A DNA stretch of 64,000 nt from Streptomyces sp. ICBB 8177 (GTDB lineage Bacteria; Actinomycetota; Actinomycetes; Streptomycetales; Streptomycetaceae). Positions 22,670-25,048 of the stretch are shown piece by piece (within the stretch, counting starts at the first letter, position 1; each line of letters begins with the position of its first letter). The position numbers and the translations under genes are program-made. Location: assembly GCF_003144095.1 (NCBI RefSeq), contig NZ_NSKH01000018.1, positions 441,965 through 505,964 of the forward strand, in the 5' to 3' direction. Below the pieces are notes generated by a model. It had not been told where the DNA came from. It ran no database searches and saw only the letters and a list, made by a program, of their open reading frames with translations.

Positions 22670-23155
22670 TCAGCTGACCCGCCCGTACCAGACGCTGCGG
22701 GTCCAGATGCGTTCCAGCCGGACCCGTGCCCCGGTGTGCGGCGCGTGCCAGATCTTGTCGTCACCCGCGTAGACGCCTACGTGGTAGACGTCGTCGCCGT
22801 AGTGGAAGAAGACCAGGTCGCCGGGGGCCCGTGACGAGGCGGGAATGTGCCGGGTGCCGTCGTACTGCTCGGCGGCGGTCCGCGGCAGCCTGCGTCCGGC
22901 CTGGCGGAACGCGTAGAGCGTCAGCCCCGAGCAGTCGAAGCGGTACGGCCCGGTCGCGCCGTACTGGTACGGGGACCCCCGCTTGGCCGCCGCGACGTGC
23001 AGGGCTTCCATGGCCACGGCCGCCGCGTTCGCGGGTGGCGCCATCCCGGGCGCCAGCAGGCTTCCGGCCAGGGCGGCCGCGGTCAGCACCGCTGTCGTCC
23101 CGGTAAGGGAAAGTGCCCTGGCCAGGCATGCGGTGGGAGATATCGGCGCACTCAT
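22670..23155 (-). CDS. Secreted NlpC/P60 peptidoglycan hydrolase
   Basis: A 161-residue exported protein. A signal-peptide-like stretch (ALSLTGTTAVLTAAALAGSLL, then PPANAAAV) precedes a single NlpC/P60 domain with the catalytic Cys in RFDCSGLTLYAF, the His in VYHVGVYAG and a third polar His in KIWHAPH. These enzymes cut the stem peptide between D-iGlu and the diamino acid. Upstream on the same strand lie a c-di-AMP riboswitch and a stem that hides the ribosome site, linking wall lysis to the second messenger. There is no separate binding domain. Confidence 0.93.
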   Translation of the reverse strand: MSAPISPTACLARALSLTGTTAVLTAAALAGSLLAPGMAPPANAAAVAMEALHVAAAKRGSPYQYGATGPYRFDCSGLTLYAFRQAGRRLPRTAAEQYDGTRHIPASSRAPGDLVFFHYGDDVYHVGVYAGDDKIWHAPHTGARVRLERIWTRSVWYGRVS

Positions 23156-23158
23156 CGC

Positions 23159-23191
23159 GCACTCCTTCGTCGACCGCCTGCGAAGGAGTGC
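23159..23191 (-). promoter_or_regulatory. Hairpin sequestering the ribosome site of the NlpC/P60 gene
   Basis: On the transcript, GCACTCCTTCG (23191-23181) pairs perfectly with CGAAGGAGTGC (23169-23159), with an 11-base loop. The 3' arm contains AAGGAG, the ribosome site, three bases beyond which the start codon ATG 23155 follows. No U-run follows, so translational rather than transcriptional control is more likely. Confidence 0.65.
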
Positions 23192-23214
23192 CTGTCGGGT
23201 TCGGGCAGGCGAAG

Positions 23215-23360
23215 AATGCCCGGCCGCCGTGGCGGCTTCACCCCAAGGGGTCCTCACGTCCTTCGGACGGACCCCGTACTGCTCGGGTCCTCCGCTCCTG
23301 CCGGCTGTGGCGTCGACCTGGCCTCCGGGCGCCGGCAGGACTCGGCGTTCGCCCGGAGCG
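23215..23360 (-). ncRNA. c-di-AMP riboswitch (ydaO/yuaA type)
   Basis: The leader of the NlpC/P60 gene, read on the minus strand, contains the family's conserved blocks in order: GCCGAGTCC (23346-23338), GGCAGGAGCGGAGGACCC, and CTTGGGGTGAAGCC (about 23248-23235). Streptomyces cell-wall hydrolase genes are known to carry this element, which turns expression off when c-di-AMP is high. Ends are approximate. The rest of 23361-23903 holds an upstream GC hairpin, an AT-rich promoter-like patch near 23400-23470, and no gene. Confidence 0.85.
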
Positions 23361-23903
23361 CCCCGCCCCTTCGGCGGGGGCTTGTCGTCCCAGGGATGAT
23401 TACGCACAAACCGGAAAAATCTCTAACGCAAAACGCCGTGTTCGTGTCTCTTTGTGATCGAATACGCGCCATTGGTAGTGGTGAGCGCCTGATCGCGGCT
23501 TCGGACAACCGCTGCGCCGACCGGGTGACGAGGGCGTGCCCCGCCGGGCCCACGCGGTCCGATCGAGAGGGCCACGCGCCCGCGGGGGGCGCGGGAGTTC
23601 CGGCGAGGCGGGCGCGGGACGGGACGATCACGAACGCGATCACGGCGCAACGCATCGGCAGTGCGTGACGGTACCCTGCTCGCGGGCCCGGACCGACGGC
23701 GGGCGCCGCGACCTCACGGAGGGTGGGCGTCCCTCCGGTACGGCCGGTGCGCCGACCCGCTCGCGGAGCCGGTCGCTCCGCAGGCCCGTGGTCCACCCGC
23801 CAACGGGCCCGGTCTCCGCCGCCCAACCCCGTACGGCCCCGGAGCCCGGAGCCTGGCTCCCGCGTTCGCACCGCCGCCCCTCAGCCGCCGTCCCCCTCGC
23901 GTT

Positions 23904-24227
23904 TCAGCCGCCGTCCCCCTCGCGCTCGGGTGTCTCCCGGGGGATCGAGGGGAGCGACGTCCGGCGTTCGCCGTCCAGGACGCGCAGCGCCCGCACCAGC
24001 GTCTCCCGGTGCACCTCGGTCTCGCCGCGTTCGTGCATCAGAGTGAGCGCGTCCCTGAGTGAGGCGGCCTGGCCCACCAGCGCCTGGGCGGCGCGCAGTG
24101 CGGCGTACGTGTTCGTGGCGCGGGCCGGGTTGGCGCGGCCCAGCAGATCGGCGAGGGCGAGGTAACTGTCGATGAACTGGCCCTCGGCGCGGGTCAGCGC
24201 GGGCATGGGTGGCAGGTCGGGGAGCAT
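23904..24227 (-). CDS. Small helical protein of unknown function, operon partner of ClpP-like gene
   Basis: A 107-residue acidic, mostly helical protein (TRAEGQFIDSYLALADLLG; AALRAAQALVGQAASLRDALTL) with a disordered C-terminal tail. I do not recognise a family. It begins seven bases after the stop of the ClpP-like gene, so the two are almost surely co-transcribed. No signal peptide or membrane segment is seen. It could bind the ClpP-like protein (inference only). Confidence 0.7.
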   Translation of the reverse strand: MLPDLPPMPALTRAEGQFIDSYLALADLLGRANPARATNTYAALRAAQALVGQAASLRDALTLMHERGETEVHRETLVRALRVLDGERRTSLPSIPRETPEREGDGG

Positions 24228-24234
24228 GCCGCGA

Positions 24235-24888
24235 TCACCGGTCCTCGGAGGCCGTGAAGGCCTCGCCGTTCCCGGCGACCCGGTCCACCAGCCCGTAGGC
24301 GATGGCCTGTTGGGCGTCGAACACGGTCGTGTGCTCCAGGTCCGCGTGAACGCGGGCGCGCGGATGTCCGGTGTAGCGGGCGAGCAGGGTCTCGAACCGG
24401 TCGCGCCTGCGGAGCAGTTCGGCGGCGTGCGCTTCCAGGTCGGACGCCCGCCCGTGCAACGGCTCGTCGTACGAGGGCTGTTGAAGGGTGATGCGGGCGC
24501 CGGGCAGGACGAGGCGCCTTCCCGGCGTGCCGGCGGCGAGGAGCAGTGCCGCCGCGGGGCCCGCCTGCCCCAGACAGACCGTGCGGATGCCGCAGGACAG
24601 ATGGCGCATCGTGTCGTGGACCGCGGTCATGGCGCTGAACGAGCCGCCGGGCGAGTTGACGCACAACTGGATCTCGCGGTCCGGCGCGTCGTGGTCGAGC
24701 CGGAGCAACTGGGCGATCAGGACGTTCGCCGAGGTGTCGTCGACGGGTGCTCCGAGCATGACCACCCGCCGCGCCAGCAGATGGTCGTAGGGACCGTCAC
24801 CCTGCGGCGGCAGCGTGCCGACACCGGCCCGTGGCCCCGGTGCTTCGTCGCGCTCCGGTCGTGCGGGGTCTCCGGGACGTCCTGGCAT
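24235..24888 (-). CDS. ClpP-like pseudoprotease (catalytic triad lost)
   Basis: A 217-residue member of the ClpP/crotonase fold, with VNSPGGSFSAMTAVHDTMRHL, GQAGPAAALLLAAG and IAYGLVD aligning without gaps to E. coli ClpP. All three catalytic residues are replaced: Ser of GQAAS is Pro, His of MIHQP is Gln (TLQQP), and the Asp of ERDRF is Thr (EHTTVF). It should therefore be inactive as a protease and may be a ClpR-like ring subunit or a scaffold. GGAGGT precedes ATG 24888 by seven bases. Followed by a 107-residue partner gene; divergent from a Phd-type antitoxin gene. Confidence 0.85.
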   Translation of the reverse strand: MPGRPGDPARPERDEAPGPRAGVGTLPPQGDGPYDHLLARRVVMLGAPVDDTSANVLIAQLLRLDHDAPDREIQLCVNSPGGSFSAMTAVHDTMRHLSCGIRTVCLGQAGPAAALLLAAGTPGRRLVLPGARITLQQPSYDEPLHGRASDLEAHAAELLRRRDRFETLLARYTGHPRARVHADLEHTTVFDAQQAIAYGLVDRVAGNGEAFTASEDR

Positions 24889-25031
24889 GGGCGGCACCTC
24901 CGTGGTCTCGGTCGGGACGCGGTCCCGCGTGGGCGAGCGCGCGGCCCCCGCGAATGAAGTCCCTTGCGAAAGCAGCCCTCGCGAAAGCGGCTTCCGTGCG
25001 GCGGCCTTCGCGGAAAGCGACTCTGTGAAAA

Positions 25032-25048
25032 ATGTACAGGATGTACGG
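25032..25048 (+). promoter_or_regulatory. Direct repeat upstream of Phd-type antitoxin (candidate operator)
   Basis: ATGTACAGG (25032-25040) followed by ATGTACGG (25041-25048), close to the start of the antitoxin gene. TGTACA-type half-sites are known in YefM/Phd autoregulation. Confidence 0.5.

Follow-up and report, generated by a model that had tools for sequence, protein, structure and literature searches.

ClpP paralogues without catalytic function have been described chiefly in the lineage of cyanobacteria and plastids. The ClpR proteins of cyanobacteria, plastids and apicoplasts are ClpP homologues that lack the catalytic triad, have the ClpP fold and are retained by selection (PMC7966870). 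Streptomyces species carry three or five ClpP homologs (PMC9765437). In S. hawaiiensis, the ClpP1P2 heteromer with ClpP2-S131A is fully active; ClpP1-S113A abolishes activity, and the ATPases dock on ClpP2 (PMC9765437). In the five-clpP set of S. lividans, ClpP5 is the extra ClpP besides P1P2 and P3P4, and its gene has been described only as monocistronic. Another accessory ClpP, the ClpP-ADEP of S. hawaiiensis, remodels the Clp core and gives its producer self-resistance (PMC12607617), and clpP genes mark the gene clusters of ClpP inhibitors (PMC13386464). Among antitoxins, operators of the YefM type contain a TGTACA core in the antitoxin promoter (PMC7730913).

The clpP5 locus and its inheritance

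The window, i.e. the whole stretch of 64,000 nucleotides of Streptomyces sp. ICBB 8177 that was analysed, contains a clpP-like gene, a small gene for a partner protein and a divergent gene of the Phd type, all three at the coordinates given in an earlier, sequence-only reading of this DNA. The gap of 7 bases between the clpP-like gene and the gene for the 107-residue partner, also noted in that reading, was confirmed (23904-24227 versus 24235-24888). The features of the locus are as follows.

22670-23407, minus strand: NlpC/P60 hydrolase gene, downstream of the partner gene and on the same strand
23904-24227, minus strand: partner gene, 107 aa, helical, three predicted helices, 7 bases downstream of clpP5
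24235-24888, minus strand: gene of a predicted ClpP5-type pseudoprotease, 217 aa, with S97P, H122Q and D171T, with Y62C and F82H, axial N-terminal motif absent
24896-24901, minus strand: Shine-Dalgarno sequence GGAGGT of clpP5, 7 nt before the ATG at 24888
25031-25046, plus strand: predicted Phd operator AATGTACAGGATGTAC, within the phd/clpP5 intergenic region, the only copy in the genome
25055-25348, plus strand: solitary Phd/YefM-type antitoxin-like repressor gene, divergent from clpP5; an alternative start at ATG 25067 is possible

The position of GGAGGT, 7 nt upstream, fixes the clpP5 start at ATG 24888. The host genome (6.3 Mb) contains three ClpP genes, the other two of which encode ClpP1 and ClpP2 with intact triads; the window gene is therefore a third ClpP besides P1P2, and in the tree it is distinct from P3P4. 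It is probably the poorly studied Streptomyces 'ClpP5', a link that rests on gene counts and not on sequence, and differs from the S. lividans description in being paired with a 107-aa gene. The pair had been called unexplored in the sequence-only reading; the name ClpP5 does exist in the literature, although the open-access subset yielded nothing on triad loss in ClpP5 or ClpP4 or on a ClpP5 partner, so that novelty is not proven. Likewise, no named locus tag of the S. coelicolor gene was found in open-access papers.

Co-occurrence of the genes, proposed in that reading as a check, was surveyed in 298 genomes of the family Streptomycetaceae. The partner is present in 168 of them, and the complete trio of clpP, partner and phd was found in 139 of the 157 cassettes examined, in which clpP and the partner gene are mostly separated by 5 to 8 bases. 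Such recurrence of the linked trio excludes a chance arrangement, and clpP5-partner-phd is an inherited three-gene cassette, of which clpP5 is the least conserved member. In the window, the Pfam-annotated neighbours are the NlpC/P60 hydrolase, an HATPase and the urease operon. Of 112 longer cassettes from relatives, 98 have the NlpC/P60 gene next to the partner gene and in the same orientation, and 72 have urease gamma on the phd side; these shared neighbours indicate an inherited chromosomal locus rather than a mobile insertion.

A ClpP2-type protein lacking the catalytic triad

The window protein has the ClpP fold and CLP_protease domain characteristic of S14 peptidases. The Pfam match reaches 172.9 bits (cut-off 20.2, E 8e-51), and the AlphaFold2 model, with a pLDDT of 88 overall and about 97 in the core, lies at approximately 1 A rmsd from M. 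tuberculosis ClpP2 and S. hawaiiensis ClpP1P2 in Foldseek comparison. On alignment, the columns of E. coli S97, H122 and D171 are occupied by Pro, Gln and Thr, so that the replacements reported in the sequence-only reading are borne out together with the fold. The Ser-His-Asp triad is absent from both the window protein and its nearest relative, which share the P-Q-T combination, and the window copy is predicted from its residues to be catalytically inactive. The alignment, described earlier as gap-free, is nearly so: the handle loop after QQP is one residue longer than in ClpP2 and two residues longer than in E. coli ClpP.

The losses extend beyond the active site. The docking-pocket positions 62 and 82 are occupied by Cys and His, and the axial N-terminal segment VLPEFTERT is missing in the window lineage; a simple upstream frameshift was rejected as the cause, as no trace of VLPEFTERT was detected upstream in any frame. 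Comparison of the window copy with its nearest relative gave an omega of 0.32 (CI 0.22-0.49).

In the phylogeny of actinobacterial ClpP-like proteins, another check suggested beforehand, the family is the neighbour of ClpP2 and is separate from ClpP1 and the P3/P4 types. The best PDB sequence matches are Streptomyces and M. tuberculosis ClpP2, and ClpP2 of these organisms is the closest paralogue, with 46-48 % identity. Most ClpP5 orthologues share the docking-pocket type of ClpP2, whereas the window copy has lost the pocket and the axial segment, as well as the triad that the housekeeping ClpP2 retains. The window protein resembles ClpR in being a ClpP homologue without a catalytic triad. Its grouping with actinobacterial ClpP2 argues, in a tree that contained no ClpR, for an origin within the actinobacterial ClpP2 side that is probably separate from the cyanobacterial and plastid ClpR.

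Triad changes were also observed in another ClpP2-side paralogue. The second gene of the clpP3P4-type operon carries H122G (VLLGQP) in five of five genomes sampled (G015, G036, G187, G010 and G189; loci L224, L226, L227, L228, L231, L239 and L240), and in a sixth genome, G002 (L230), it carries S97A instead. The independent H122G would be convergent evidence that ClpP2-side paralogues need no triad.

Recurrent loss of the triad under purifying selection

Among 147 intact full-length orthologues, Ser-His-Asp is kept in 66, and at least one of the three residues is lost in 81. Inactivity is thus a recurrent state rather than a family-wide property. The sequence-only reading had named orthologues with the triad restored as grounds for its refutation, and such intact copies do exist, yet the copy in the window is still predicted to be inactive. 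The triad-less copies have lost one residue in 41 cases, two in 29 and three in 11, in 35 combinations. On a tree built without the triad columns, the intact or lost label requires 14 changes, at least five of which are forced by well-supported branches; when regain is excluded, approximately 18 triad losses are inferred (by residue, Ser 23, His 12 and Asp 13), these counts being estimates from a quick tree with many weak branches.

Selection was assessed in close pairs only (dS 0.08-0.3), and all-pairs dN/dS values, saturated in GC-rich DNA, were discarded. Omega was 0.28 for triad-less and 0.24 for intact copies, and in all ten triad-less pairs tested singly its upper limit was below 1. Purifying selection on clpP5 is almost as strong in triad-less copies as in intact ones. 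The columns of S97, H122 and D171, which are invariant in intact copies, rank 32, 15 and 33 of 171 for variability in triad-less copies, in which position 98 is likewise among the most variable. On the other hand, of the 74 columns that intact copies conserve, 48, including R170, R118, D78 and E141, are still at 95 % or above in triad-less copies, and nearly all triad-less copies, the window lineage excepted, retain the axial segment. The docking aromatics at positions 62 and 82 are present in all 66 intact copies and in 63 of 78 triad-less ones. A dependence of triad loss on whether the genome carries clpP3P4 was rejected, as the two showed no association (Fisher p 1.0).

These observations suggest that the extra ring has a task other than cutting. 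Since the ring core is retained and selected without the triad, the structural or modifying role that the sequence-only reading had envisaged (a ring scaffold or a modifier of Clp proteases) is plausible. We favour, at a probability of about one half, the reading that ClpP5 acts as an accessory subunit of the ClpP2 type, non-catalytic like ClpR and controlled by Phd. Its product would still build ClpP-type rings and may join or regulate a Clp core in which ClpP1 cuts, as ClpR does in cyanobacteria and plastids. The catalysis of ClpP5 may be free to erode because ClpP2-type subunits of the Streptomyces heteromer provide ATPase docking, not cutting. Having lost the docking pocket and the axial segment, the window copy more probably serves as a ring subunit that is inert or inhibitory than as a docking ring.

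Unlike ClpR, ClpP5 varies in triad state among its orthologues. In this bacterial ClpP family, close relatives under similar selection differ in whether their triad is intact or lost, a naturally occurring set of active and inactive versions with which the non-cutting roles of the ClpP ring could be probed. The locus also adds a small ClpP-linked protein that is new to study and a regulator of its own whose operator is clear.

The Phd-type regulator and its predicted operator

The divergent gene beside clpP5 had been taken for a Phd-type antitoxin gene, and its product indeed contains a Phd/YefM domain (PF02604, 51.2 bits, cut-off 29.8; TIGR01552, 56.8 bits; Pfam and NCBIfam) and a conserved C-terminal motif, RFGIAA. 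In most cassettes, the phd promoter carries AATGTACAGGAYGTAC at a nearly constant place, and 118 of 143 cassettes show the pattern TGTAC-n5-GTAC, as against a rate of 0.0003 in shuffled sequences; its frequency is about the same whether the cassette has an intact or a triad-less ClpP. A predicted operator with a TGTACA core is present at the Phd promoter. The conserved synteny and the conserved operator support the assignment of the Phd gene to the clpP5-partner unit. The domain and the TGTACA-core operator are common to this locus and the YefM/Phd antitoxin operons; however, the half-sites lie nearer to each other here than in yefM-yoeB, where the distance is 12 bp, and a divergent ClpP operon takes the place of the toxin gene. 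No cognate toxin gene was found beside phd, which is flanked by clpP5 and urease gamma, or among the conserved neighbours. The exact site occurs once in the window genome, and the operator as the mark of a wider regulon was rejected.

The Phd-like protein would repress its own promoter at TGTAC-n5-GTAC and, judging by the position of the site and the divergent arrangement, probably also that of the clpP5-partner operon.

Polyketide-cluster copies

In two genomes, phd, a thioesterase gene, a gene of a ClpP2-clade ClpP with an intact triad and the partner gene lie beside large modular polyketide synthases and carry the same operator as the chromosomal cassette.

L236:9047-11409: polyketide-cluster set, candidate ClpP-active product
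L237:11803-14151: polyketide-cluster set, candidate ClpP-active product

The cassette is in this way connected with polyketide clusters whose products may act on ClpP. These sets, together with the use of clpP genes as flags of ClpP-inhibitor clusters (PMC13386464), speak for a role of the whole cassette in chemical defence, as a Phd-switched spare ClpP2-type subunit that is insensitive to inhibitors or acts as a decoy, with its partner, against natural products that target ClpP. Divergence does fall on the active site of ClpP5, and a subunit without the nucleophile would escape inhibitors of the active site. That an extra ClpP can give its producer self-resistance is proven for ClpP-ADEP (PMC12607617), and the two cluster copies may be resistance-linked in the same way, although ClpP-ADEP is ClpP1-like and catalytically competent with ClpP2, whereas ClpP5 is of the ClpP2 class. 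Since, moreover, just two such clusters were seen among the loci and the chromosomal cassette lies in housekeeping surroundings (urease, NlpC/P60) with no biosynthetic genes, a defensive role of the cassette as a whole is considered unlikely.

A more speculative proposal, to which we give little credence, is that of a transferable module reporting Clp status. Phd would be a Clp substrate whose level reports Clp activity, a block of Clp would release a catalysis-free ClpP subunit together with a new class of ClpP-ring regulator, and producers of ClpP-active polyketides would have captured the module for self-protection.

The partner protein

The partner is modelled as three helices with modest confidence (pLDDT 74). 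Searches of Pfam, NCBIfam, PADLOC, PHROGs, PDB sequences and Foldseek returned nothing above chance, and family, PDB and Foldseek searches gave no match to accessory proteins of the ClpT, ClpS or ClpF type. About ten cassettes have kept the partner gene, usually together with phd, where clpP5 is broken, has an internal deletion or is missing; across these genomes the omega of the partner is 0.04-0.27. Its retention under selection where clpP5 is lost argues for a function that does not require ClpP5. At two loci (L159 and L166), an in-frame internal deletion has left of clpP5 a short stub, made of its N- and C-terminal ends, which directly precedes the partner gene.

These cassettes bear on the preferred reading of a ClpR-like subunit, since roughly ten losses of clpP5, like the lost pocket and N-terminus of the window copy, would also fit a module that is being shed. 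Under such slow loss, clpP5 would be a backup ClpP2 abandoned lineage by lineage, its triad eroding through relaxed constraint before deletion, with phd and the partner as the functional core. The selected partner and the stubs agree with this, as do the low conservation of clpP5 relative to the other two genes and the loss of pocket aromatics in triad-less but never in intact copies. However, the triad-less clades are diverse, their frames are open and their omega is near that of intact copies, and we regard slow loss as a possible but doubtful account.

The persistence of partner and phd after clpP loss could also be read as an atypical toxin-antitoxin locus, with the partner as toxin, Phd as antitoxin and ClpP5 tuning the stability of Phd. 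The Phd family match, the YefM-like operator core and the RFGIAA motif are in keeping with it; but Phd and the partner are divergent rather than in one operon, the partner has no toxin family match (Pfam, NCBIfam, PADLOC/PHROGs) and it is found without Phd in other families, which makes this arrangement very improbable.

Outside the Streptomycetaceae, all three genes were found in one genome, and other genomes have the partner without ClpP. As several genomes have lost clpP5 but kept the partner, and other families have it with no clpP at all, the partner is not an obligate half of the ring; the ring formed by the pair that the sequence-only reading had suggested is not supported in this respect, and the retention of the partner weakens the idea of an obligate pair. 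Under the preferred, ClpR-like reading, it would be an accessory factor of ClpP2-type rings, able to act without ClpP5 as well. The partner homologues of other families at L189, L190, L191, L193 and L194 have no ClpP or Phd alongside, and those at L189 and L190 adjoin GNAT and LysR genes. In the out-of-family cassette (L241:13667-16520), a Doc/Fic-like ORF (HALVDGNRR) and a PIN-like ORF lie downstream of phd.
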